In this document: piece after piece, positions 5,187 to 19,424 of the stretch
Layout of the letters: each line of letters starts with the position of its first letter
Position numbering within the stretch: the stretch's first letter is position 1
Source of the DNA: Acidobacteriota bacterium
GTDB lineage: Bacteria > Acidobacteriota > Polarisedimenticolia > J045
DNA: 64,000 nucleotides
Reading direction: 5' to 3'
Assembly (NCBI GenBank): GCA_030949985.1
Contig: JAUZRX010000025.1
Location: 1-64,000 of the forward strand
Position numbers and translations under genes: made by a program
Notes under the pieces: generated by a model
What the model was told of the DNA's origin: nothing
The model's database searches: none
Seen by the model: only the letters and a program-made list of their open reading frames with translations

Positions 5187-6248
5187 TCAGCTGGGATCCG
5201 GCCCGGGGGTGTCGGGCCCTGAAGCCGGCAACTCCGGCTGCGCGATGTACTCCATCGGCAGATCACCGGTCAGGCTCTTGAGAAAGGCGACGATATCCAT
5301 CACCTCGTCGGGCTTGATCGTCTTGCCCAGCTGGTAACGGCCCATGATGGCCACGACTTCATCGAGAGACTCGAGGGATCCATCGTGCATGTAGGGCCCC
5401 GTCTTCTCCACGTTCCGCAGGCTGGGAACCTTGAAGAAGAACTTCTCCGCCTCGTTACCCGTCACCGCGAAGCGACCCTCGTCTTCGGTGGGGTAGGGCT
5501 CGACCAGTCCCATCTTCTGGAAGAGGTTGCCGCCCAGGTAGGGGCCCATGTGACAGGTCGTACAACCGACCTCGATGAACTTGTCCAGACCGCGGCGCTC
5601 GGTGGCCGTCAGGGCCCCGCCGTCTCCCTTGAGGTAGGCGTCGAAGCGACTGGGAGTCACCAGCTTGCGCTCGAAGGCGCCGATGGCCTTGGCCAGGTTG
5701 TCGTAGGTGACCGGGTCGTCCTCGCCCGGAAAGGCGGCGGCGAATTCCTCGACGTAGCCGGGGATGCTCTTGAGCACACGCACCACCGCCTCCTCCGAAG
5801 GCATGGCCATCTCTACCGGGTTGAGAATCGGCCCCTTGGCCTGGGCCTCCACGTCGGGCTCGCGGCCGTCCCAGAACTGGGCGATGTGCCCCGCGGCGTT
5901 GTACACCGTGGGACTGTTGCGAGGGCCGAGCTGGCCGCCATGCCCGGCGGAGGTGGGCTTGCCGTCCACACCCCACTGATCGAGCAAGTGGCAGGTGTTG
6001 CACGAAATGTCCTGGTTTTTCGAAAGCCTGGTGTCGTAGTAGAGCTTCCGGCCCAGGTTGATCTTCTCATCGGTGATCGGGTTCGTCGCCGACTCCATCA
6101 CTTCCGGCAGGGGTTGAAACATCGCAACGTGCTGTGGGCTCGGGGGCGGCGCGGGAGCCTGCTCGGTGCCGCCGCAACCCACCGCGCCAAGCACCAGCGC
6201 CAAGCCGGCGCTCAGCCCCAGGAACCTGTTTGACGAGGAAGAAAACAT
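5187..6248 (-). CDS. Di-heme cytochrome c peroxidase / MauG family lipoprotein
   Basis: This is a 353-residue protein. The N-terminus is a lipoprotein signal ending LGAVGC (Cys about 25), so it should be membrane-anchored in the periplasm. Two heme c sites are visible, CNTCH near residue 82 and CTTCH near 226, spaced as in bacterial di-heme peroxidases (CcpA/MauG). Those enzymes reduce H2O2 using electrons from small c-type cytochromes. Conserved-looking blocks include SGNTCH-type surroundings and [16 protein letters not shown] near the C-terminus. An AAGGAG ribosome site lies 4-9 bases before ATG 6248. It belongs to the minus-strand arm of the cytochrome locus and has a 14-bp inverted-repeat operator candidate immediately upstream. 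A MauG-like oxidase role cannot be excluded. Confidence 0.9.
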
Positions 6249-6262
6249 CGCCTTCTCCTTAT

Positions 6263-6276
6263 TTACCTGTCGGTAA
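6263..6276 (-). promoter_or_regulatory. Operator-like inverted repeat upstream of the peroxidase
   Basis: TTACC-TGTC-GGTAA is a perfect 5+5 inverted repeat with a 4-bp centre. It lies 15 bp upstream of the start codon, next to the ribosome site. Read on the coding strand it is TTACCGACAGGTAA, closely related to sites at 9315-9328 and 10870-10883. The symmetry and length suit a TetR-like dimeric repressor (inference). No such regulator gene lies in the window. Confidence 0.5.
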
Positions 6277-6395
6277 TACCATGCCTACCGCCGGAGCCTA
6301 GACCGGAGTCCGGCAAGGGTCAAGGTCCCGTCATTTCGCCCGCCCCGGATTTCCCTGCCGGGGCGTGCACCCCGCGCCGCCCACCGGCCGTTCGG

Positions 6396-9239
6396 CTAGC
6401 GGTAGCCGAAGAGCATGGTGTAGGCGATCAGCAGAATCAGGGTCAGGCCGATTGTCAGGGCCACGAAACCAAAAGCCCTGAAGCCCCGCTCGGCCGGCGC
6501 CGGGAAGGGATCGACAAGCATCGCTTCGATCTCCTCGGGGGTCTTCCCCCTGACCAGGGCCTCGTACTCTTCGGGCTTGTCGTGCTTGAGTTCTTCGAGG
6601 GTCACGCGCCCCGTGAAAATCACCATGTCCATCGGAAATTTATCCGGGCGGAAGTGGGTATTGAAAAAGTGAATCGTGAAGATGAACGCCACCGCCAGCA
6701 GGGCCTCGTCGCTGTGGATGATCGTCGCGACGTTGACCGACCAGCCCGGCAGAATCCAGGTGAAGACTTCAGGAAACCACAATATCAACCCCGTCGAACC
6801 GATGATGAACACGCCCCAGAAAACGGCGAAGTAGTCGAACTTCTCCCAGTAGGTCCAGCGACCGAAACGCGGCCGCGGCCCCAGCCCGAGGAACCACTTG
6901 ATGGAGCCCCAGAACTGCACGATGTCCTTGGGCATGATCATCATGCCATCGGGCGAGAAGATGAAACGCAGCCAGCTCTTGCCCGATTCCTTCTTCATCC
7001 TGCGCACGTGCAGCAAGTGCACCGCGAAGAGAATCAGCAGCGTAACGGCGGCGACCCGGTGCAAGGCCGACATGATCTCGAAGCCTCCCAGCACACGAGA
7101 GACGAACTGCGCCCATTCCATGTAGGAGAACTTCAGTGTCATGCCTGTCAGCGCGAGGGTGAAGAAAGTCAGCAACATGATCAGGTGCATCGTGCGCTGG
7201 GTCCGGGTAAAGCGCCGGTAAAGCTTCTGCTGCCCGGTCGCGCTCTTGTGAGGCCGCCAGACTTCCCGGGTTCGCCACAGGCGGTAGAGCCAGGCCAGGG
7301 TGTGCACCACGAAGAAGCTCAGTGTTCCCACCAGGAGCGTCGTCATGAACCAGAAGGAGTAGAACAAGTAGGGATACTTCTTCTTGTCATGGTGGGTCGC
7401 GTGGGTCAGGTAGCCGGCAAACTGCCGATGGGCGCCCGTGTGACATTGCCCGCAGGTCTCGACGATGTTCTTGTGGCTGAGAGTCGAGTCGGGATCGTCG
7501 ATCGGCAGGATGTTGTGGGTCCCGTGGCAGTCATAGCACTTGGCCGCGGCGACATCACCGAGGCGCGAGACCTTGCCGTGGATGGTTTCGAAGAAGGTCT
7601 CCGATTCGTCCTCGTGGCAACGGCCGCACTGCACGATCATCCGCGTGCGGAAGTCGTCCAGGTCGGTCCGCGAGATCGAGTGAGAGGTGTGGCAGTCCTC
7701 GCAGGTCGGCAGCTCTTCACTCGGCCGGTCGGAAACCAGCGGCGAATGGATACTCGCCAGGAAGATTTCCTCGATGCCGTTGTGGCAATGGCCGCAGGTG
7801 TCGGCAATGTTCTCGTGGTTGACAGTGGAATTCTCATCTTCCGGAGGCAGGGAATGGTGCGCCGTGTGACAGTCGGTGCAGGTCGCCGAAACCACCAACC
7901 CGCTTTCCACCAGCCCCTTGCCGTGAATGCTCATCACGTAGCTGCCGACGATATCGTCCACGTCGGCGTCGATCCGCCGAGCGGCCTTTTCTCCTTCCCG
8001 GTGACAGCCCGCGCAGAGCTGGGGAATGTTCCGCGGATAGGTCCGTGAAGAGGGGAGCTGGTGGCTCTGGGTGCTGTGCTTCTCGTGGCAGTCGAGGCAA
8101 CCGGGCGCGTCAGGGTCTCCCTTGGCCTGGAGCCGCCCGTGCGTGCTCGAAGCGTAGTCTCGAACGGTCTGGGCGTGGCAGATCGCGCAGTCGACCCTGG
8201 CATCGGGCTGCAGCGCCGAGCATGGACGGCGCAGGGATGTGCGAACCCCGGTGTGGCATTGGGCGCAGCCGACCCCAGAATGCGTCGAAGCATTGTAGGC
8301 CTGCTCGTCGACATAGAGAGAGACCGTTTTTCCATCCCGCTCCATCGTCAGGGAGGGGTCAGAGTGGCATTGCAGACAATCCACGTTGGCCGCACCCCCG
8401 GGGGTGTCTCGGACACGCCGGATCTTGTGGGGGCTGTGGCATTCCACGCACGATGGGATCACGTGGGGCTGCTCCTCCCACAACCGGCCCTCGATCACCT
8501 TGACATGCACCTCCTCGATCCGGCTGTGGCAACGGGTACAGGTCGCCGCCACGTTCTTGCGATTGATACTCGAACGGGGATCGGAATGCTCAAGGATCTT
8601 GTGGGAGGTATGGCAGGAAGTGCAGACAGCAGTAACGGTCAGCCCCTTCTTGAACAACCCCTCCCCATGAATCGAGAGCGAGTAGTTTTCGAGGATCCTT
8701 TCCTGGGGAATGTCGTGGGTCAGCGATACCGGTGACCCCTCGTGGTGGCAGCGACCGCAAAGCAGCGGGATGTTCATCGTCGCGGTGGGGGAGCCGGGGT
8801 CGGTATGCGGCAGAATGTCATGGTGCCCGTGGCAGGTGGTGCAGCCGGGAGCCAGGCGGTCTCCCCTGGTGATGGCGCGGCCATGGAGCGATATCGCGTG
8901 GTCGGAGGCCTGCTCGTCATGACAGATGGAGCAATCGACGGCTTCGACATCCTCGTCATGCTCCATGTCGATGCCTTCGAGGTCCCCGTGACAGTCAATG
9001 CATTGCAGGTCGCCATGGACCGAGGCGGCGAAGGCCTCCTGGTCGACCCAGACGCTGATCTCCCTGCCGTTGCGCTCACCGGTCAGGTCGGAATCCTCGT
9101 GGCAAATCAGGCACTCGTCGTTCTCCTGGGCCGTGACGGGAAGGCTTGCCGGCAGACAGGTGAACATCGCCAGGACGGCGACGGCCCACACCGGCAGCCC
9201 GGGAAGACGACGCGAAGGACGGACGCGGCTCGCAGGCAT
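6396..9239 (-). CDS. 19-heme c-type cytochrome fused to a b-type membrane domain (CbcL-like)
   Basis: The product is 947 residues. A Sec signal is followed by a periplasmic part (about 40-615) with 19 CxxCH motifs, beginning CLICH and ending CGQCH. The hemes fall into two similar eight-heme modules plus a three-heme tail. From about 626 on there are several membrane helices with paired histidines (TMHLIMLL, ALHRVAAV, LFAVHLLH, FTIHFFNTHF) typical of a di-heme cytochrome b561/formate-dehydrogenase-gamma-like quinol-binding subunit. The layout resembles Geobacter CbcL, an inner-membrane quinone-to-periplasm electron gate; orthology is inferred. ATG 9239 is preferred over 9272 because GAGG lies 10-13 bases upstream and it gives a cleaner signal peptide. 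Confidence 0.85.
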   Translation of the reverse strand: MPASRVRPSRRLPGLPVWAVAVLAMFTCLPASLPVTAQENDECLICHEDSDLTGERNGREISVWVDQEAFAASVHGDLQCIDCHGDLEGIDMEHDEDVEAVDCSICHDEQASDHAISLHGRAITRGDRLAPGCTTCHGHHDILPHTDPGSPTATMNIPLLCGRCHHEGSPVSLTHDIPQERILENYSLSIHGEGLFKKGLTVTAVCTSCHTSHKILEHSDPRSSINRKNVAATCTRCHSRIEEVHVKVIEGRLWEEQPHVIPSCVECHSPHKIRRVRDTPGGAANVDCLQCHSDPSLTMERDGKTVSLYVDEQAYNASTHSGVGCAQCHTGVRTSLRRPCSALQPDARVDCAICHAQTVRDYASSTHGRLQAKGDPDAPGCLDCHEKHSTQSHQLPSSRTYPRNIPQLCAGCHREGEKAARRIDADVDDIVGSYVMSIHGKGLVESGLVVSATCTDCHTAHHSLPPEDENSTVNHENIADTCGHCHNGIEEIFLASIHSPLVSDRPSEELPTCEDCHTSHSISRTDLDDFRTRMIVQCGRCHEDESETFFETIHGKVSRLGDVAAAKCYDCHGTHNILPIDDPDSTLSHKNIVETCGQCHTGAHRQFAGYLTHATHHDKKKYPYLFYSFWFMTTLLVGTLSFFVVHTLAWLYRLWRTREVWRPHKSATGQQKLYRRFTRTQRTMHLIMLLTFFTLALTGMTLKFSYMEWAQFVSRVLGGFEIMSALHRVAAVTLLILFAVHLLHVRRMKKESGKSWLRFIFSPDGMMIMPKDIVQFWGSIKWFLGLGPRPRFGRWTYWEKFDYFAVFWGVFIIGSTGLILWFPEVFTWILPGWSVNVATIIHSDEALLAVAFIFTIHFFNTHFRPDKFPMDMVIFTGRVTLEELKHDKPEEYEALVRGKTPEEIEAMLVDPFPAPAERGFRAFGFVALTIGLTLILLIAYTMLFGYR

Positions 9240-9314
9240 CGTAGCTTTCCTCTTCAAGCGCCGGATGCGCAAAACGGGTACGGGAGGGAGCAGTTCCCCG
9301 GAATGAAGAATAAG

Positions 9315-9328
9315 TAATTAGCCAGTAA
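9315..9328 (-). promoter_or_regulatory. Operator-like motif upstream of the 19-heme cytochrome
   Basis: On the coding strand the sequence is TTACTGGCTAATTA, about 76 bp before ATG 9239. It fits the pattern TTACYGRCNRRTWA shared with the sites at 6263-6276 and 10870-10883, though its right half is less symmetric. I interpret it as a common operator for the minus-strand cytochrome units; this is unproven. Confidence 0.4.
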
Positions 9329-9375
9329 GCATCCCAGCGACACGTCGCCTCCCCTCCTCCTGGTTGGCTCTCCGG

Positions 9376-10830
9376 CTATTCGGCGTTCTGGAGCAGGCCG
9401 AGAATCTCCGGATCCGGCTCGTCCTCTGCCAGGATGACATGACAAAGATCACAATCGCCCGAAATCGTTCGTCCATCTTCGGCGCTGTGTTCGTCGTCGT
9501 GACAGCGGAAGCACCCCCCCATGAAATCGGGGTGGCCCAGGTGGCTCTTGTAGGTCCCCCAGGTGATACCCATCTCGGGAAAGACATTCTCGGCAAAAGC
9601 TTCCTGCACCCCGGCGATCGCCTTGTCCAGCAGATCGGGCCTTTCCTCCACCAAGCCGGCGTAGTTCTCGCTGTACCACTCCCGCAGGGTCTTTTCGATC
9701 CCGGCGAGAGCCTCCTCGGTAGAGCCGAAGTCGCCGGCCAGGGCCTCGAGGCCCTGGCGCTTGATGAAGGGCAGCTCTTTGGGGATGTGCCCGGAGAAGA
9801 GCTTCTGATCGAGAGCTTCCTCGGCGCTGAGGTAGATGTGCGTCGGCCGGTTGTGACAGTCGACGCAATCCATGGTCCGGCTCCAGGGCGCCCCGTCCTC
9901 GGTGATCTCGGGATCCTCCCCGGAGCGGAAGACAGTCGTCTGACCCTGTTCGTCGGTCATCGTGACTTCAAAGATCTGCTCCCGTTTCCAGTCGGCATGC
10001 CGGTAGTCGATCTTGGCTTCCTCCGAGACATGCCAGTGGATACCGTGGGGGTGGTGTCCTTCACCGCCTCCCGACCCGATCTTCATCAGGAGCACAGTCT
10101 TGACGGCGGTGTTCTCTTGATCGGGCAGGAACTTGTGCTTGACGTAGAGTTTCTCACCAAAGAAAAACTCGGGCCGGTGACATTCCTCGCAGGTGTCCCG
10201 CGCCGGCCGCAGCCCTCGGATCGGCGTTTCGATCGGGCGCGAATAGGTATTCAGGGCCACGGCCAGGAACTGGCGCGCACCGGAAAGCTTGGACTTGGCG
10301 AACCACTTGGCGCCTTCACCGATGTGACACTCGACGCACTTGACCCGGGAATGGGGCGAACGGCTGTAGGCACTGTACTCCGGCTGCATCACACTGTGGC
10401 AAAACTCGCCGCAAAAGGCGACGGACTCGGTGTAGTGGAAGCCCGTGTAGGAGAAGAGAGCCACCACCACCACGTTGATCACCGTCAACGCCCCGATGAT
10501 CATCACCACCCACTGCATCCTCCGGAAGCTCTGGGGGGATTCGAGTTGCTTGCGGAAGAAGAAGTAAGTGTCGGTGGGCCCCGTGTCCTTGCGCCGGAAG
10601 AAAAGCAGCCCGACGGCGATCGCCAGCAGGCCCAGAATGAAGAGCGGCCCCATGACCAGGTAGACCATGAAGCCGAAGTAGGGATTGCCCAGAACACCGG
10701 ACAGATCGAGCAGGCACCCGAGCAGCAGGGCAGGAAAGAGCACCGTCACCAGGATGGCGCCGCCCTGGGAGACCCTGCTCTTGGAGAGCAGACGAATGAA
10801 GGCCTTGATCGCCTCGACCAACCAGCTCAC
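9376..10830 (-). CDS. NapC/NirT-type membrane-anchored hexaheme cytochrome (ImcH/NrfH-like quinol oxidase)
   Basis: The product is 484 residues. The N-terminus has three hydrophobic segments (about 20-115) and the rest is periplasmic. The first heme site is CGEFCH, a C-x3-C-H variant followed by SVMQPEY, as in many NapC/NrfH relatives. Five ordinary sites follow: CVECH, CEECH, CVDCH, CFRCH and CDLCH. Proteins of this family oxidise menaquinol and pass electrons to periplasmic cytochromes. GTG 10830 is chosen over the longer GTG 10869 because GAGG precedes it and because the operator-like motif at 10870-10883 would otherwise abut the start. It lies directly upstream of the 19-heme gene with about 140 bp between, so the locus may hold two alternative quinol-oxidising gates. 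Confidence 0.85.
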   Translation of the reverse strand: MSWLVEAIKAFIRLLSKSRVSQGGAILVTVLFPALLLGCLLDLSGVLGNPYFGFMVYLVMGPLFILGLLAIAVGLLFFRRKDTGPTDTYFFFRKQLESPQSFRRMQWVVMIIGALTVINVVVVALFSYTGFHYTESVAFCGEFCHSVMQPEYSAYSRSPHSRVKCVECHIGEGAKWFAKSKLSGARQFLAVALNTYSRPIETPIRGLRPARDTCEECHRPEFFFGEKLYVKHKFLPDQENTAVKTVLLMKIGSGGGEGHHPHGIHWHVSEEAKIDYRHADWKREQIFEVTMTDEQGQTTVFRSGEDPEITEDGAPWSRTMDCVDCHNRPTHIYLSAEEALDQKLFSGHIPKELPFIKRQGLEALAGDFGSTEEALAGIEKTLREWYSENYAGLVEERPDLLDKAIAGVQEAFAENVFPEMGITWGTYKSHLGHPDFMGGCFRCHDDEHSAEDGRTISGDCDLCHVILAEDEPDPEILGLLQNAE

Positions 10831-10869
10831 CTTGACCTCGCTCTCAGGCAGCTTTGCCCGCACGAACAC

Positions 10870-10883
10870 TAACCCGTCAGTAA
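10870..10883 (-). promoter_or_regulatory. Operator-like motif upstream of the NapC-like cytochrome
   Basis: The coding-strand sequence TTACTGACGGGTTA lies 40 bp before the chosen start at 10830. It matches TTACCGACAGGTAA (6263-6276) at 11 of 14 positions and shares the TTACTG start with the site at 9315-9328. Confidence 0.45.
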
Positions 10884-10979
10884 GGGGGTCATATTAGGCC
10901 CCCCCGCGTAAGGCGTCAAACGAACAAAACAGGCCGATGAAGTTGAGTTATACCGCAAAACGGGACGCAGGCATCAAGA

Positions 10980-11001
10980 GGGGACGCCCACGGGCGTCCC
11001 C
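10980..11001 (-). terminator. Hairpin terminator after the tetraheme cytochrome
   Basis: GGGGACGCCC and GGGCGTCCCC form a 10-bp perfect stem around AC (in practice a 9-bp stem with a 4-nt loop). It lies 30 bp beyond the stop of the 11031-11405 gene. The following T content in the minus direction is weak (TCTTG), so termination efficiency is uncertain. The stem core GGGACGCC recurs in the terminator at 15167-15193. Confidence 0.65.
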
Positions 11002-11030
11002 AAAGCCTCTGGCAACGGTTGTCTCAGCGG

Positions 11031-11405
11031 CTACCTGACATGGCACTTTTTACACTGCTTGGCCTTCATCGCCGTCAACGGGCCGGCCTTCTCACCCGCC
11101 TCCTGGCGGCTGGCGTGGCAGTCGCCACAAGTCTTGTGCAAGGCGTTCTTCAGCTTGGGAGCCTCGTCCTTGACGACCTTCCTGTCGTGGCACTCGCTGC
11201 AGGCCCTGGGGGTAGCCCCTTCCTCGAGCTTGTGATGGCAGACCTTGCAGTTGCCGGCCCTCGCCGCATGCTCCTTGTGCTTGAAGGTGACGGTTCCCAT
11301 CTTGGCCTGCAACTTGAGAACTTCCTTGCCCGCCGGAACATCCGCGGCCAACGCCCAGAACCCGGCCAGACCGGCCAGCAGCAGCAGAACAACGATCTTC
11401 TTCAC
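11031..11405 (-). CDS. Periplasmic tetraheme cytochrome c (class III / c7-like)
   Basis: The product is 124 residues. The N-terminus is a short signal peptide (KKIVVLLLLAGLAGFWALAA). Four heme sites follow: CKVCH, CSECH, CGDCH and CKKCH. Extra histidines such as FKHKEH could serve as second axial ligands, as in the c3/c7 family. It probably shuttles electrons between the inner-membrane gates and the outer-membrane conduit. GTG 11405 is the start because AAGGAGGAG lies just upstream and the signal peptide begins there; a longer frame to 11507 has no such support. It has its own terminator, so it is probably monocistronic, divergent from the decaheme/porin pair. Confidence 0.88.
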   Translation of the reverse strand: MKKIVVLLLLAGLAGFWALAADVPAGKEVLKLQAKMGTVTFKHKEHAARAGNCKVCHHKLEEGATPRACSECHDRKVVKDEAPKLKNALHKTCGDCHASRQEAGEKAGPLTAMKAKQCKKCHVR

Positions 11406-11833
11406 GGCGTCACTCCTCCTTGAACTGTCGTCCCCACGGCGCGGGGGAGGGAATGCTAGCACTTGCCACGGCCCGATCCCAGCCTTGGCAGCCACTTTAG
11501 TGAGCATAAACTCAACAAACTTTCTGTCAAGTTAGCCATTGACCAGACCGCCGCGGTCCGTTATGTTCCCTCCGCCCCATTTGACTTACTGGTCAGCCAT
11601 GGAGGACGGCGATGCTTCCAGCCTCTTGCTTCCGGGTCTCCCCCGGCTGAGCCGAGAGCGCGGCGGGCTCCCGGCGGGATCCCCCCCTTCCCCGTGACTC
11701 TCGGCTTCCGGTGACCGCCTGCCGGTCTCGCGAATCGGGAAAGTCTCGCGCCGTCCTGTCCCCATCATTCGGCAAAAGTCCCCCCCCGCGGGGGCCTTGG
11801 CGCACGGCGAACGTGCGCAGGGAGGAGGAGTCC
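11406..11833. other. 428-bp divergent intergenic region between tetraheme and decaheme cytochrome genes
   Basis: No convincing gene. It is unusually A+T-rich around 11490-11600 compared with its surroundings, which suits promoters for both flanking cytochrome units. It contains TTAGTGAGCATAAA near 11498, GTTAGCCATTGACC near 11531 and the better operator-like match at 11586-11599. Long frames through here lack a ribosome site and plausible protein composition. Confidence 0.6.
11586..11599 (+). promoter_or_regulatory. Weaker copy of the cytochrome-locus operator motif
   Basis: TTACTGGTCAGCCA matches the pattern TTACYGRCNRRTWA at 11 of 14 positions, in the orientation of the decaheme gene. It also lies inside an inverted repeat TGAC-TTACTG-GTCA (11582-11595). 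It is about 235 bp from the decaheme start and about 180 bp from the tetraheme start, so which gene it serves is unclear. Confidence 0.3.
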
Positions 11834-12841
11834 ATGAAACGCCACCTGTCCACCACCGCGAGCCTGGCGCTGTGCCTGGCCTTGTGGTCGTTGGCGCCCC
11901 CGAGCCGTGCCGGTGATCCAGCCGCAACTCCGTGCACAGCCTGCCACGACCAGATCGTCGCCTCGTTTGAAAGCTCCCCCCATGGGAAACTGGCGACCGA
12001 GCCGGGTCTCGACCCGGCCGGCGCCTGCTCGGCCTGCCATGGCCCCGCCGAGCAGCACATGGAGGAGGCCGACCCGACGCGGATCCGATCCTTCCCGGGC
12101 AAGGAGCGTGAGGCGGACGCCGAACTCTGTCTCGGCTGCCACGCCTCCCGCAACGGCATGGGCGCCTGGCAGGCGGGCGAACACGCCATCGCCGGGGTGA
12201 GCTGCCTCGACTGCCACAGCATCCATGACCTCGGCGACGAGCCCTCTCCGGGGCTGGGCCGGCGCCACGGAGGCGATCCTTACGCGAGCTGTGCCCACTG
12301 CCACGGCGAGGTACTGGTCAGGACGCGGATGCCCTCCCATCACCCTCTCGGCGAAGGTCGCCTGACCTGCGGGTCCTGCCATGATCCCCACGGCATGACC
12401 GAGGGATTGCTCAGGACACGCTTCCGCAAGAACGACCTCTGCCTGGACTGCCATGCCGCCATGCAGGGGCCCCATGTCTTCCAGCACGAACCGGTCGAGG
12501 AAGACTGCATGATCTGCCACGACCCTCATGGCGGACCGGCGGACAACCTGCTCGTCCAGACCGAACCCTTCCTCTGCCTCCAATGCCACGAAGCCCATTT
12601 CCACGCCGGACTCGGTGGAACGGAAGGCTCCGCGGACACCGAACCGGTGGCCGGGATGACCTTCGGGACGGTCAGCGACCCGACCTCGGGGCTGCGCCAG
12701 ATCACCGTCTCCAACATCTACGGTGCCTACGGCATGCAACGCTCGTTCCTGACCAAGTGCACCCAGTGCCATTCCGCCGTTCATGGCTCCGATACTCCCT
12801 CCGCCGGTATCTCCGGTGGCGGCCGAGCCATGACCCGGTAG
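11834..12841 (+). CDS. DmsE/MtrA-family periplasmic decaheme cytochrome c
   Basis: The product is 335 residues with a Sec signal peptide and ten CxxCH motifs (CTACH, CSACH, CLGCH, CLDCH, CAHCH, CGSCH, CLDCH, CMICH, CLQCH, CTQCH). Segments such as SSPHGKL, PSHHPLGEG and DPHGG match the DmsE/MtrA/PioA family. Those proteins sit inside an outer-membrane porin and conduct electrons across it. ATG 11834 follows GGAGGAGGAG closely and begins the signal peptide; the longer frame has neither. The stop overlaps the ribosome site of the porin gene ten bases later, so the two are co-translated, as mtrA-mtrB or dmsE-dmsF are. No extracellular terminal cytochrome or DMSO reductase subunit lies next to it here. 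Confidence 0.9.
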   Translation: MKRHLSTTASLALCLALWSLAPPSRAGDPAATPCTACHDQIVASFESSPHGKLATEPGLDPAGACSACHGPAEQHMEEADPTRIRSFPGKEREADAELCLGCHASRNGMGAWQAGEHAIAGVSCLDCHSIHDLGDEPSPGLGRRHGGDPYASCAHCHGEVLVRTRMPSHHPLGEGRLTCGSCHDPHGMTEGLLRTRFRKNDLCLDCHAAMQGPHVFQHEPVEEDCMICHDPHGGPADNLLVQTEPFLCLQCHEAHFHAGLGGTEGSADTEPVAGMTFGTVSDPTSGLRQITVSNIYGAYGMQRSFLTKCTQCHSAVHGSDTPSAGISGGGRAMTR

Positions 12842-12851
12842 AGGAGGACCG

Positions 12852-14696
12852 ATGATGTCGAAGAGAATCTCCCTGATCCTCCTCGCGACGCTCGCTGGAA
12901 TCGGCGTGCTGCCTTGCGCGGCCGGCGAGAGCGGCGTCGGCGAGGTCGCCGTCGGTGTCCGGTCCGTGAACACCGACGACTCGCTCAACCGGGCCGCCGA
13001 GTTCGAGAGCACCTCCAGCAGCGCCGTGGTCGCCGGTTGGTGGAGCACCGCCTTCGGAGAGACGTCGAACATGGCCCTCGACCTGCTCTACCTCGACTCC
13101 GGGGAACAGGACTACGGGTTGGTCCTCGACTTCTCCCCTTCGCTGCGCCTCGAGGCCGACCACACCGTCTTCGAGCACCATCTGCCTCACGATCCGCTGG
13201 CCAACCTGGAAGGCTGGGATGGTGAAGGCAAGATCGTTCAGCACACCGATCTCGATGCGGGCAACCTCTATCGCGAAGAATTCAACCAGGCTCACGCCGC
13301 CCTGATCTGGCGGCCCAAAAACTCTCCCGCCTGGGAACTCGCCCTCAAAACCCGCAGCGTCTGGCGCGAAGGGACCCGCCAGCACCGTTCCACGGATCAC
13401 TGTTACAGCTGCCATATCGTCGGCCAGGGGGTCGGCATCGACGAGCAACTCGACGACCTGACCCTGGAAGCCGGGTACCTGCGGAGCAACTGGGGAGTGA
13501 AATACTCGTACACCCAGAGGGAATACAGCGATGACTCCGCCGACGACACCCGCTGGTTCGACCCGGCTCACCATCCTTCGAAAGTCACCCCGTCCGGCGC
13601 GCCGCTTCCGGTCTTCGGCAACCGGGTGCAGTTCGGCGTCCTGCCCGACGGAACGCCGGCCTGGTACGAGGGCGCGGTGGCGGTGAGCACCGAGTTCGAG
13701 CGGGACTCCCACGTGCTCACCGCTTTCTGGAACGGCAACCGGGATCACCTGGACGGAGCCGTTGCGAAGTACACGGTCAGCAGCAAGGCGAACCTGAACC
13801 GCGGAGGCGTAGGCACGGGCTACGACCTGGACTACACCTCCGCCATGGCGCGCTGGGTCCACCGGTCCGGGGAACGAACGAAGGTCCGGATCCGGGGCCG
13901 CTACGAAAAGATCGACTCCGACGATGCCGCCATAACCCTGACCGAGAACGTCGCCCTGGCCGGCCCCCAGGCCGGGGACACCTACGCCGACGTCTACGGT
14001 GCCGACAACGTGGACGGCAACCTGGGCCCCGACGAGTTGCGCTGGAATCCGGACGACTACCGCATCCGCCGCAGCGCGGTGGACCGCAAAGTCCTCACCG
14101 CGGGTGCCGACCTGATCTACCGCCTCGGCAAGGACCGCCGGCATCGGCTCCAGGTCAGCCTCAAGAGCCGCACCACCGATCGTGAGAACTATGCGGTCAA
14201 CGACGGGGGCTCCACCAGGACCACTGAAAACACCCTCGCCCTACGCCTGCGCGGCACCCTGGGCGAGAAGAAAAACCGCTACCAGGCCGCCGTGGAGTGG
14301 TACAGCGCCGACGACCCCTTCACCAACGTCGACGGCGGTTGCCGGACGGCGGGAACGGACCCCGCCGATCCCTTCGTGTTCCCCTGGAATTCCTACCAGT
14401 ACTACCAGCTCTATGCGCTGCGCTTCGCCAACCTGACCAATCAGCCCACCGATCGCCTCACCCTGCGGGCCAGCGTGACGCTCTCACCCCTGGAGAACAG
14501 CTCGCTGACCTTGCAGGCCAAACGGCAGAAACGGACCAACGACCAGACGCAGGTCAGCGACTGGGAGTCCTCGTCGACCGACCTCGGCGCGCTGCTGTGG
14601 TGGGCTCCAAGCCCGCGGATCTACACTGTCGCCTCGGCCCAATACCTCAAGGAGGATCAGGAGACGCATATCTGCATTCCCCTGATGGGCGGGTGA
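12852..14696 (+). CDS. MtrB/PioB-family outer-membrane porin, frame up to in-frame TGA
   Basis: The 614 residues before the TGA begin with a signal peptide (MMSKRISLILLATLAGIGVL, cleaved after the ALA-like PCAAG region). They continue as alternating-residue beta-strand sequence typical of the 26-28-strand MtrB/PioB barrels that sheath a decaheme cytochrome. A CYSCH heme-type motif sits at residues 184-188, within an extracellular or periplasmic loop. GAGGAGG 5 bases upstream supports the start at 12852 (12855 is also possible). The frame is interrupted by TGA at 14694-14696 but continues without any shift for another 150 codons (see 14697-15149). The full length would be about 765 residues, near the usual MtrB size. 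The product is therefore either truncated or made by recoding. Confidence 0.85.
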   Translation: MMSKRISLILLATLAGIGVLPCAAGESGVGEVAVGVRSVNTDDSLNRAAEFESTSSSAVVAGWWSTAFGETSNMALDLLYLDSGEQDYGLVLDFSPSLRLEADHTVFEHHLPHDPLANLEGWDGEGKIVQHTDLDAGNLYREEFNQAHAALIWRPKNSPAWELALKTRSVWREGTRQHRSTDHCYSCHIVGQGVGIDEQLDDLTLEAGYLRSNWGVKYSYTQREYSDDSADDTRWFDPAHHPSKVTPSGAPLPVFGNRVQFGVLPDGTPAWYEGAVAVSTEFERDSHVLTAFWNGNRDHLDGAVAKYTVSSKANLNRGGVGTGYDLDYTSAMARWVHRSGERTKVRIRGRYEKIDSDDAAITLTENVALAGPQAGDTYADVYGADNVDGNLGPDELRWNPDDYRIRRSAVDRKVLTAGADLIYRLGKDRRHRLQVSLKSRTTDRENYAVNDGGSTRTTENTLALRLRGTLGEKKNRYQAAVEWYSADDPFTNVDGGCRTAGTDPADPFVFPWNSYQYYQLYALRFANLTNQPTDRLTLRASVTLSPLENSSLTLQAKRQKRTNDQTQVSDWESSSTDLGALLWWAPSPRIYTVASAQYLKEDQETHICIPLMGG

Positions 14697-15149
14697 GCCG
14701 CCGGCCTTTCTTCCCGCCAGTTTGGCAGGGATCAAAACAGCACGACGTTTGAAACGACCACCACGAACCTCTCCCTCGAGATCGGAACACCCCTCGGCGA
14801 GCGCACCGAGTTCTTCGCCGGAGCGACCTACATCGACCTCCAGGCCGAAATGGAGACATGGTCGATGCAGGGCGTGATTCCCGATCCGCTGACCGATGGC
14901 TCCGGAGCGGTGATCTTCGACCTCGCCGACTACGAAGCCCTTCTCCGAGACTGGACACCGGTGGCCGGCTACTCCAACGTGGATGTCAATCGCCTCGATC
15001 TGACGCTCGGAACCCGTTACCGCGGGGCCGGCGGCTGGGGCGTCGAACTCTCGCTGCTGTGGACCGACTACCAGGACGACGATCCGATCCTCGAGGACGA
15101 GACCGGTCGGTACTCGCGCTTCATGGCCCTGGTCGGCAAACGCTTCTAG
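14697..15149 (+). pseudogene. In-frame continuation of the MtrB-like porin past the TGA
   Basis: This stretch reads in the same frame as 12852-14696 for 150 codons to TAG 15147-15149. It has no ribosome site of its own. It continues the barrel (TTTTNLSLEIG, ATYIDLQAEMETWSMQG, NRLDLTLGTRYRG, WGVELSLLWTDYQDDD) and ends in KRF. A terminal aromatic residue is what outer-membrane barrels need for assembly. The intact strand pattern and third-position bias suggest that the disruption is very recent, is an assembly error, or is read through or recoded. An internal ATG at 14850 could start a 99-residue fragment, but such a fragment would have no obvious role. Confidence 0.7.
14712..14731 (+). promoter_or_regulatory. 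Hairpin shortly after the porin's in-frame TGA (SECIS-like position)
   Basis: TCCC-GCCA, loop GTT, TGGC, bulged A, GGGA forms an 8-bp stem with a G-starting apical loop. The stem begins 15 nt after the TGA and the loop 23 nt after it. Those distances fall in the range described for bacterial selenocysteine insertion elements. The loop is small and lacks the GGU of E. coli fdhF, so this is suggestive only; it could also be chance in G+C-rich DNA. Confidence 0.3.
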
Positions 15150-15166
15150 AACGGCAAACGCGAACA

Positions 15167-15193
15167 GGGACGCCGGGTTTCCGGCGTCCCTTT
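15167..15193. terminator. Intrinsic terminator between the porin and ccsBA (convergent genes)
   Basis: GGGACGCCGG - GTTT - CCGGCGTCCC is a perfect 10-bp stem followed by TTT. It lies 18 bp after the porin stop and 16 bp before the ccsBA stop, so it can serve both directions. Its closeness to the stop of the continued porin frame (15149), not the TGA at 14696, is further evidence that the longer frame is the original gene. Confidence 0.85.
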
Positions 15194-15208: not shown

Positions 15209-18200
15209 TCAAGCGTAGCTGTGCAAACCGACGATCACGAAGTTCACCGCGACCCAGTTGAAAATCATCACCGCGCAACCGACCACGGCCAGGATCGCCG
15301 TCCACAGGGCCTTGTCCTGCACCTTGATCCGCACGTGCAGCAAAACCAGGAAGACCAGCCAGGTATTGAGGGCGAAGACCTCCTTCGGATCCCAGCCCCA
15401 GGGCCGGCCCCAGGAAACGTCGGCCCAGACGGCACCCAGCACGGTGCCGACCCACAAGGCGATGAAGGCCACCTCGAGGAAGACCATCGTCGCCCCGTCG
15501 AGGGTGCGCGCCAGACCGGCGTTTTCCTCCAGGCGCTGGCGCCCGAGAATCACCGAAGAAGCACCGCCGCGGGCGAAGATGGTGGGACCCCATTGACTGC
15601 CGAGCAAACCCGGCGCGAAACGATGGAGTCCACGGAAAACCAGGTAGAGCACCGCGGTGACCGAGGCGAAGAAGATCAGCGCGTAGGAGGCGATGACCAC
15701 GTTGGTATGGATGTAGAGCCAGATCGTGCGATCGAGGACCGGCATCACGGTGGTGATATCACTGCTCAAGGTCACCGTCATGAAGTTGCCGAACATCATC
15801 GCCACCATGGCATAGGCCGACGCGCACAATGCGGGCAGCAGGCGCAGCCGCTGCCGCCTGAGCACCCATTCGAGGACCAGCGCCACCACCCCGCCGAACC
15901 ATGCCGACGCGATCACCGCCTCGAACATGTTGGCGTTGGGGATTCTCCCCGCCAGCCACCATCGGAGAAAGATCGAGAAGGTGTGCACGGCAAAGCCGAG
16001 GAGAAACAAGCCCATCCCCGCCAGGCGCGCCCAGCGGAAGCCGTAGAGAAAGGCCATCAGCAACAGGGGAATCGCGAAGAAGTAGATCAGCCAGCCGGCG
16101 GTGAGCTTGTTGTGCTTGTAGTACCACAGCTCCCAGCCCAGGCGCGCATCGTCGGGATAGAGAGTGGGATTGACGGCCCGGAACGTGGCGGCCAGATCGC
16201 TCAGGGCCTCGTTGGCCTGCTCCGCGTCCTGAAAGCGCCAGCTTTTCTCCAGCCGGGTCCAGGCGTCGCGCAGTTTCCTGGCGAGTTCCGGATCGAGGCC
16301 CGGAACTCCGCCGACGCCCATACCGGCGTGAATCGAGTCCGCGGGGGCTCCTCCGCTGATGGCACTGTCGAGGGTGAACCAGGGATCGAGTTCGCCACCC
16401 CCGGGCGGTGGCACGACCCGCAGCAGGGAACGCAACACCCGTGAGTCGGCCAGCGCCCGCGCATTGCGCACCTGGGAGACGGCCTTGCCGGTCTGGCGCA
16501 GGTCGGCCTCGAGCTGCTCCATCACCGAACGCACCGCCTGGTGGTCGAGGAAGCGTGGCGAGACCAGACCGTCGTCGATCAACTTGGAAAGGGCCTCGTC
16601 GGCGATCAGACCCTCGCGACGCGACGCGGGCACCACCGAGCGAATCCCCTGCGCCAGGCGCTGGCGCAAGGCCTTGTTCTTGATCCGGATCACCGTGGCG
16701 TCGACATAGTGTTCGGGCACCAGCACCAGGTCCAGGTACCAGATCAGCGGATCGACCCGAGCCGTCAGGCGCGGGTTGACGTACTTCAGCTTTTCCCGGG
16801 CCAGCGAGTCGATGGTCTTGACCCGTCCCCCCTCCTGGGCCGCGGCGGCCCGGAAGGCCTCGAGATCGAGAGCCTCCTGGAAATCACGACTGACGGAAAG
16901 CTCCCCCGCCCTGGCCGTCGAAAGCCCACCGAGCAACGCCACCAGGGCCAGCGCCGCAGCCACGCCGGACATCCCCTTGCGCACGGCGCGGCTTTCTTCC
17001 CGCCGCCGCAGCAACAGCACGGGCTTGAAATAGAAGGCCCAGAGGACACCGAAGACCGTCATCAGGCTGCCGAAAAGCATCACGCCCACCCCGTGGCGAT
17101 TCCCAACCCCCAGACCCGTGTAATTCATGCCCGCGTAATTCCTCTCGGGAGCCGGCGGATCCCACGTGGCCTGGAAGAGCCACCAGCCGTCGTGCTCGGT
17201 GGGTTGATTGGATCGCACTTCATGGATCTCGGACCACTTTCCGTCTTCGAGAAAACGGATACGGGAGATGTAATCGCGCTCCCGTGTGCCGCCCGGATAC
17301 ACCTCCAGCCGAAAATCTTCGAGCGCGATCGGCGTACCCAGGTGGAGACTCTCCCGGGAGAAGAGAAACTCCATCCGACGGCCATCCCCCAGTTGCACCA
17401 GGCGCGGATAGTAGCCGGCCCGACTCGGGTGAGGATAGTGGCTGTAGTCGAGCCAGACGCGGCGCGTGCTCTGCCCTTCACCGATTTCGAGCTGGACCAT
17501 GGAGTAGTAGGAGCCGGCCTTGAGATCCCGCGCGTCTCGAGGAATCACCACCGGCACGCGCACCGGGCGGGAATGAGCGCTCAACTCGTGCACGACGAGC
17601 TGCATCTGGCCACCGGCGAGATCCACGGCCTGACCGACAGCGGCCTCGTGATGCTCCACCCGGCCGTCTTCACCGACAACCACCACGTGCAGGCCCAGGG
17701 GGCCGCCGACGATCACGATTCCCGTCTCGATCAAATCGAGCAATTCGATGTGGATCCGGTCATCGACCAGCCCGCCCCGCATGTGACCGTTGTCGGTCAG
17801 ATCCTGGGACAGCTCGACCTTGGGAGCGACCACCGCCCGGAGAAAGCGCTGTTCTCCGCGCTCGACTTGCACCACCGCCATCTGGGCCGGCTCGCGGGAG
17901 TTGGCCAGGCTCCAATTGCTGTAGAGCTGGGCCAGTTGCACCCGGTACGGGGTGCCGGCGATTTCCACGGGGCCCGCCGCGGCCTCGTCGAGGGGCACGT
18001 CCTGGGAGACTCCCCGCCCCTTGACGGTGACCCGCAGTCGAGGCACGCCGGTGGGGTCGATCAGCGCCGCCAGGGCGTCCGGGTCGCTGATCCACTTGAA
18101 ACTCACCGCCAGCAGTCCCTCGTCGATGGAGAGCCGGCTCCGCTGGGGATCGTTGGCCAGCATGAAGTCGGACATCTCGGCGCTCCCGGCGCGGAGCGTG

Positions 18201-19258
18201 AAGCGCAGGTAGGGGTCGAAACGGTCTCCGCCGGCCGTCCAGCGCTGCTGCATGTGGGCGAAGGGCAGGAAACCGAGGACCCTCAGGCTCACTCCCGGGG
18301 CGCTATCGTTCTCGGCCCGCAGGTCGATGGCGAGGCGGCCGGTTCGCGGCAGGGGCTCCCCGTCCGCAACCACCGCGTCGCCGGGGGCGGCCATGAACTC
18401 GTGGTAGCGAGGCAAGCCCTTGACCGGGTACTGGATCCACTCCTGCCCACCGGCCAGGCGGGCGTAAATCGCGGGTCGATCGTGCAGGGTGAGCAAATCG
18501 GTGGGGGCATATTCGAGTCGTGCCTGGACGGACTCGTCCACCAGTTTCCTGCCCAGTGTCTTGATCGCCCGCCCCCGGCCCGGAACCACGTCCTCGGTGT
18601 ACTGGGGATAGCCCACCAGAAGCTGGCGAATGAAGCGCTCACCGTCCCCCCCCAGGGGCGCGAAATCGAGCTGGGCGGCGTAAGTCTTCTTGCCCTTGTC
18701 ATCGCCGGTGAGCAGTTCGTAGGCGGGATTGAGGGTCGCCACCCGCACCCGGTAAGCCCGGCTCGATCCCCGGACCACCACCTGCTCGCCGGGCCGCAGC
18801 ACCAGGCTCGCCGGTTCGCCGTCCTCCACCTGCACGATGGCCTGGCGCCGGTAGACAGCGATGTCTCCCTCCAGCTTCTGGGAGTAGTAGATGCCGCAGC
18901 CCAGGACCAGCACCAGGATACCGAGGTGGGCGGACCAGGTGCCGAGGTTGGGCAGGTTGAAGGGAATCTTGCGCAGGGTCGCGCAGCTCAACGACAGGCA
19001 GAGCAGGCCCACCAGGGTGAGAAAAGGCCACCAGGTGAACCACTCCATCTCGGTCTTCTCGAAAGTCTGCCGCGGGAACCATTCGAAGGGATAGGTGCCG
19101 GCGGAACCGACCCAGCAGTAAACCAGGATCAGCGTCATCACTGTCACGCCGAACCACATGTTGCCGACGAAATCGATGCCTTGGAGCAGGAGACGGACGC
19201 CGCCCTGGCTGGTGTCCGCCGAACTCGGCCGCGGGATATTCGTCATGTATTCGCTCAT
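15209..19258 (-). CDS. ccsBA: System II cytochrome c maturation protein, CcsB(ResB)-CcsA fusion
   Basis: The product is 1349 residues. The N-terminal ~750 residues are ResB/CcsB-like, with helices around 30-130, a large extracytoplasmic domain, and a return helix near 715. The C-terminal ~320 residues are CcsA-like, with about seven to eight helices and the tryptophan-rich heme-handling motif WGRPWGWDPKE followed by ALNTW. It exports heme and ligates it to CxxCH cysteines on the periplasmic side. The middle part (about 760-1030, including GGRVKTIDSLAREK) is an extra soluble domain, like the long CcsA proteins of Planctomycetes and Bacteroidetes. The position next to at least five multiheme cytochromes fits its role. 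The start is 19258 or the in-frame ATG 12 bases later; AAGG is near both. Confidence 0.9.
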   Translation of the reverse strand: MSEYMTNIPRPSSADTSQGGVRLLLQGIDFVGNMWFGVTVMTLILVYCWVGSAGTYPFEWFPRQTFEKTEMEWFTWWPFLTLVGLLCLSLSCATLRKIPFNLPNLGTWSAHLGILVLVLGCGIYYSQKLEGDIAVYRRQAIVQVEDGEPASLVLRPGEQVVVRGSSRAYRVRVATLNPAYELLTGDDKGKKTYAAQLDFAPLGGDGERFIRQLLVGYPQYTEDVVPGRGRAIKTLGRKLVDESVQARLEYAPTDLLTLHDRPAIYARLAGGQEWIQYPVKGLPRYHEFMAAPGDAVVADGEPLPRTGRLAIDLRAENDSAPGVSLRVLGFLPFAHMQQRWTAGGDRFDPYLRFTLRAGSAEMSDFMLANDPQRSRLSIDEGLLAVSFKWISDPDALAALIDPTGVPRLRVTVKGRGVSQDVPLDEAAAGPVEIAGTPYRVQLAQLYSNWSLANSREPAQMAVVQVERGEQRFLRAVVAPKVELSQDLTDNGHMRGGLVDDRIHIELLDLIETGIVIVGGPLGLHVVVVGEDGRVEHHEAAVGQAVDLAGGQMQLVVHELSAHSRPVRVPVVIPRDARDLKAGSYYSMVQLEIGEGQSTRRVWLDYSHYPHPSRAGYYPRLVQLGDGRRMEFLFSRESLHLGTPIALEDFRLEVYPGGTRERDYISRIRFLEDGKWSEIHEVRSNQPTEHDGWWLFQATWDPPAPERNYAGMNYTGLGVGNRHGVGVMLFGSLMTVFGVLWAFYFKPVLLLRRREESRAVRKGMSGVAAALALVALLGGLSTARAGELSVSRDFQEALDLEAFRAAAAQEGGRVKTIDSLAREKLKYVNPRLTARVDPLIWYLDLVLVPEHYVDATVIRIKNKALRQRLAQGIRSVVPASRREGLIADEALSKLIDDGLVSPRFLDHQAVRSVMEQLEADLRQTGKAVSQVRNARALADSRVLRSLLRVVPPPGGGELDPWFTLDSAISGGAPADSIHAGMGVGGVPGLDPELARKLRDAWTRLEKSWRFQDAEQANEALSDLAATFRAVNPTLYPDDARLGWELWYYKHNKLTAGWLIYFFAIPLLLMAFLYGFRWARLAGMGLFLLGFAVHTFSIFLRWWLAGRIPNANMFEAVIASAWFGGVVALVLEWVLRRQRLRLLPALCASAYAMVAMMFGNFMTVTLSSDITTVMPVLDRTIWLYIHTNVVIASYALIFFASVTAVLYLVFRGLHRFAPGLLGSQWGPTIFARGGASSVILGRQRLEENAGLARTLDGATMVFLEVAFIALWVGTVLGAVWADVSWGRPWGWDPKEVFALNTWLVFLVLLHVRIKVQDKALWTAILAVVGCAVMIFNWVAVNFVIVGLHSYA

Positions 19259-19424
19259 CCTTGGTTTCGAGCCGGGTGGCGGGCCCACCCGCAGGCTCGC
19301 GGGATGTAAAACTCCTGGATCCTCGTGGACAACTCCGGGCCACCCCCGTACTTCCTGGCGGGGGACGGTAATAATGGACCGCCAAGGTAGTGTAATTTAG
19401 CCTGTCTTTTCCCGGAGCGCCCAA

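Follow-up and report, generated by a model that had tools for sequence, protein, structure and literature searches.

Gene organization of the porin locus

The window analysed here, a stretch of 64,000 nucleotides from an Acidobacteriota genome, contains the gene for an MtrB/PioB-like porin whose frame is interrupted by an in-frame TGA (Table 1). From the ATG at 12852 the frame runs for 614 codons to the TGA at 14694–14696 and continues with 150 open codons to a TAG at 15147–15149, so that the predicted C-terminus past the TGA reads GKRF. A strong terminator, read directly from the sequence, follows at once, with a stem at about 15167–15176/15181–15190 and then TTT. This re-reading confirmed the frame, the terminal Phe and the adjacent terminator as described in the initial annotation. 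Other well-supported genes in the window end normally at TGA, hence a general reassignment of TGA to a sense codon in this organism is ruled out.

Table 1. Features of the porin locus (positions refer to the 64,000-nucleotide window).
Feature	Position	Strand	Evidence
MauG-type peroxidase	5190-6248	-	
Multihaem plus cytochrome b	6399-9272	-	
NapC/NirT	9379-10869	-	
Class III cytochrome	11034-11507	-	
Decahaem c-type cytochrome, partner gene (GSU2203/DmsE-like)	11711..12841	+	NF041028, TIGR03508, ten CxxCH
GSU2204-family selenoprotein porin, MtrB/PioB-like 26-strand barrel	12852..15149	+	765 aa with Sec615; NF041027 391 bits; AF2 pLDDT 79.8; 6r2q_B Z 25.7, 557 residues
CYSCH haem-c binding motif, residues 184-188	13401..13415	+	CXXCH invariant in 30/30 aligned members
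TGA codon, almost certainly read as selenocysteine, residue 615	14694..14696	+	TGA in 29 orthologues, TGC in 2
Bacterial SECIS hairpin, loop GUU 14720-14722	14712..14731	+	Covariation score 0.375 vs 0.128 shuffled; fold
Intrinsic terminator 3' of full-length frame	15167..15193	+	Sequence GGGACGCCGG-GTTT-CCGGCGTCCC-TTT
CcsA/ResB-type assembly protein	15212-19288	-	

The porin gene starts 10 bases after the end of a decahaem cytochrome gene. The product of the latter scores 317 bits against NF041028 (GSU2203 family), just under the cut-off of 325, and 206 bits against TIGR03508 (DmsE family), over the cut-off of 192.2. A gene with ten CxxCH motifs lies directly upstream of the porin in all 26 loci with enough upstream sequence, a count that leaves out locus L005. 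We also observed that the porin is surrounded by a dense block of cytochrome genes (5190–12841 and 15212–19288).

The porin itself is recognized by NF041027, described as 'GSU2204 family CXXCH-containing (seleno)protein', with a score of 391.2 bits (curated cut-off 350 bits) over profile positions 3–580 of 580, and the last profile position falls exactly at the TGA. The protein shows the traits of this family, a CXXCH motif and an in-frame TGA directly after the profile end. NF041027 is matched by all 30 aligned members, and 32 of the 396 genomes of the phylum score over its cut-off. In searches at E 0.01 the porin gave no match to PF11854 or TIGR03509, which are matched by 18 and 10 of the 30 aligned members, respectively.

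The TGA is conserved across families of Acidobacteriota

In order to establish what related porins carry at the TGA column, a check proposed in the initial annotation, we compared family members from the phylum. Among the genomes with a readable NF041027 profile end, 29, representing 14 families, carry TGA at this column, with 137–150 open codons behind it, and the conservation persists down to about 20% protein identity. TGC, encoding Cys, is found in members L030 and L032, from two sister genomes that belong to a single genus of another family. These were the only Cys-for-Sec members found, and in both selA is absent and the hairpin described below is broken. Homologues with Cys at the Sec column, one of the signs by which a bacterial selenoprotein is recognized, are therefore represented by these two genomes alone.

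Comparison with the genus mate gave a dN/dS of 0.15 upstream of the TGA and 0.12 downstream. The similarity of the two values indicates that purifying selection acts on the part beyond the TGA as it does on the part preceding it, as had been proposed from its codon bias and strand pattern. A recent nonsense mutation or an assembly error, in which case the gene would be either a young pseudogene or really intact, might have been suspected from a TGA that breaks an otherwise normal frame in a MAG-type assembly, but it is refuted by the occurrence of the same TGA in 29 separate genomes and by the low dN/dS after it, and we give it practically no weight.

Two further members are of unusual form. 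L056 is a second, Sec-less paralogue with Lys at the Sec column, from a genome that also has a Sec member, and L060 is broken upstream by a stop or frameshift, with the TGA still at the expected place. A search of viral contigs for relatives of the porin found none.

A covarying hairpin follows the TGA

The hairpin that had been noticed downstream of the TGA re-folded at exactly the positions first given, with arms at 14712–14719/14723–14731, one bulged A and a GUU loop that begins with G, 24 nt after the UGA. Folding of the single sequence was no more favourable than that of shuffled sequences (z −0.29), hence the case for the hairpin rests on comparison. In 21 aligned sequences, the eight-pair stem has 89% standard pairs compared with 74% in shuffles, and 26 double-changed cells compared with 9.9, a number that none of 500 shuffles reached. 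The covariation score of the stem is likewise raised (Table 1), and sliding the partner strand by 1–3 columns lowered both the percentage paired and this score. One distant family has a hairpin of other sequence, CTCCGAC-GGT-GTCGGAG, at nearly the same distance from the TGA. The element thus combines a position shortly after the UGA, a G in the apical loop and conservation by covariation, as expected of a bacterial SECIS. Neither the window nor the hairpin alone matched any Rfam family.

Synonymous change between the genus mates is depressed near the hairpin, with a ps of 0.09 over 15 codons in comparison with 0.53 for the part after the TGA. Only 8 of 751 windows of the gene show a value as low, and there is one other dip near codons 102–106. 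Furthermore, when 84,980 genomes were scanned with a 36-nt DNA pattern comprising the TGA plus hairpin, 21 contigs matched and all 21 carry a porin family gene. The hosts are Acidobacteriota, Desulfobacterales and other Deltaproteobacteria, and bins labelled Arcobacter and Armatimonadota, although such labels may be wrong, since the Armatimonadota copy equals L092 in all residues compared. On the evidence of the aligned sequences, the hairpin is selected as RNA.

Selenocysteine machinery in the host genome

The initial annotation had tied a selenocysteine at this position to the presence of sel genes. We found selB (304 bits; 328 bits with a C-terminal piece), selD (367 bits) and a tRNA-Sec gene (selC) with the anticodon TCA, whereas selA was not found in this genome assembly. 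The gene is present in the genus mate, and in genus and family mates it adjoins a GTPase gene or sits within some kilobases of it. This GTPase gene, whose copies in the genus mate and in the family mates share 71–73% identity, is likewise missing from the assembly, which is in 133 contigs, and an assembly gap is therefore the simplest account; the absence of selA probably reflects such a gap rather than loss. The assembly from which both genes are absent is nevertheless rated 100% complete. Co-occurrence with selA was uninformative as a test of the Sec porin: it is present in 25 of 28 Sec-porin genomes, and it is also common in the phylum (40 of 45 control genomes).

The conserved stop and the conserved downstream frame would also fit with programmed read-through by a near-cognate tRNA, which would yield a minor full-length form that contains no selenocysteine. 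However, the residue that replaces the TGA in the selA-less relatives is Cys, the hairpin covaries, is spaced as a SECIS would be and begins its loop with G, the genome contains selB and tRNA-Sec, and the 614-residue form would lack 5 of the 26 strands of the barrel (see below). We therefore regard plain read-through as very unlikely. Of the three explanations first put forward, only selenocysteine is clearly supported, by the conservation of the TGA across families, the Cys of the selA-less relatives, the covarying hairpin and the Sec machinery; mutation or assembly error is excluded. The in-frame TGA almost certainly encodes selenocysteine, and we put the probability that the gene specifies a functional MtrB-like porin containing this residue at about 0.94.

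Predicted structure and topology of the porin

To gain insight into the fold of the read-through protein, we modelled it with AF2, with Cys replacing Sec. The model (pLDDT 79.8, pTM 0.77) has 26 transmembrane strands by our count, the number also reported for MtrB (PMC7198977). The best fold match is MtrB itself (6r2q chain B, Foldseek E 3.4e-22), with a Z-score of 25.7 and an rmsd of 3.1 over 557 aligned residues; the next best match has a Z-score of 16.3. When the family profile was searched against PDB sequences, no match was obtained, so that the link to MtrB comes from the fold search alone. The two proteins share the 26-stranded barrel and a decahaem partner of the DmsE/MtrA type, but are only about 12% identical, and the CXXCH motif and Sec are found in the porin. 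Judged by the model, a product ending at the TGA would have 21 strands and lack the C-terminal Phe. An annotation that ends at the TGA loses the last five of the 26 strands and so hides the porin in acidobacterial genomes.

Counted from the periplasmic C-terminus, turns of 2–7 residues all lie on one face of the modelled barrel and the long loops all on the other. In MtrB, the tight turns are periplasmic and the surface loops extracellular (PMC7198977). By this strand count, the Sec loop (607–629) and the CXXCH tip (183–188), which joins a strand of 22 residues and one of 24, would both be extracellular. The Sec loop has a pLDDT below 50 at residues 611–627, and its geometry in the model is not reliable.

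Discussion

We propose that SelB with Sec-tRNA(UCA) would bind the hairpin after the UGA, so that selenocysteine would be inserted at residue 615, and that translation past the UGA would complete the last 5 of the 26 barrel strands and add the C-terminal Phe. The barrel would then sheathe the product of the adjacent upstream decahaem gene, in the way that MtrB encloses MtrA, and the pair would carry electrons across the outer membrane. Judging from the fold and the gene order, it is most likely that the decahaem protein is inserted in the barrel and that electrons cross the outer membrane through the pair.

The porin belongs to an already known selenoprotein family, that of GSU2204, with which it shares the CXXCH motif, the Sec at the profile end and the decahaem neighbour of the GSU2203 type. 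Nothing essential differs, and it may be regarded as an acidobacterial member. An 'MtrB/PioB family outer membrane beta-barrel protein' (WP_005997773.1) already figures as a selenoprotein in a 2022 review (PMC9312934), and a 2026 review includes the GSU2204 family, NF041027, as a selenoprotein family (PMC13188914). Hence the selenocysteine reading of the initial annotation is right, but its expectation that such a residue in an electron-conduit porin would be new does not hold. In Geobacter sulfurreducens, up-regulation of both GSU2203 (OmcK) and GSU2204 has been reported in the presence of hematite and magnetite (PMC4070692). The OmcKL pair has been proposed as a porin–cytochrome conduit in syntrophic sulfate reducers, with selenocysteine unmentioned (PMC10553843). 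Our literature search yielded no experimental study of the Sec in the GSU2204 family, nor a paper placing Sec on the barrel. A further likeness is to ExtKL of Geobacter (GSU2937–2936, NF040886), which is predicted to contain Sec and belongs to a gene cluster for extracellular electron transfer (PMC1914089, PMC5877670), although ExtKL is a multihaem selenocytochrome whereas the protein described here is a barrel; a search of its own genome found no NF040886 member over the cut-off.

What the selenocysteine does is much less certain. One speculative idea is that a redox site at the outer tip of the wire is made up of the c-haem of the porin (CYSCH 184–188) and Sec615. In a further-reaching version, the selenolate together with this haem, at the cell surface, might serve as the terminal reductase of an MtrAB-type wire, in place of an MtrC-type outer cytochrome, which we consider rather unlikely. 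Alternatively, the Sec could be real and act structurally or as a ligand of the haem iron or another metal, and not as a catalytic electron exit. The Sec has no conserved Cys partner outside the CXXCH and the same protein carries an invariant CXXCH, both of which fit a ligand or structural residue. In known selenoproteins Sec is most often catalytic, which counts against this alternative. On balance it has a real chance of being correct, somewhat short of even. A surface site composed of Sec and the porin haem, with the selenium as a catalytic selenolate or as a haem or metal ligand, is speculative, and in either form ranges from rather unlikely to possible. Should such a site exist, it would represent a new type of exit in extracellular electron transfer, and one could then test whether selenium has a role in the metal respiration of Acidobacteriota.

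Besides the Sec or Cys at 615, the members all share only the two CXXCH cysteines, so that the chain itself offers the Sec no conserved thiol partner. A subgroup that includes the porin of the window has an additional Cys seven residues before the Sec. Nine of the 11 members with this Cys, and none of the 27 that lack it, have another Cys about 111–119 residues before the Sec; a strict rule that Cys at −7 and Cys near −116 co-occur thus failed in two of the 11. Both residues, here Cys497 (14340–14342) and Cys608 (14673–14675), are assigned by the strand count to extracellular loops, and perhaps form a disulfide tying the Sec loop to the loop 488–533. Within the family, the pair is mostly gained and lost together.
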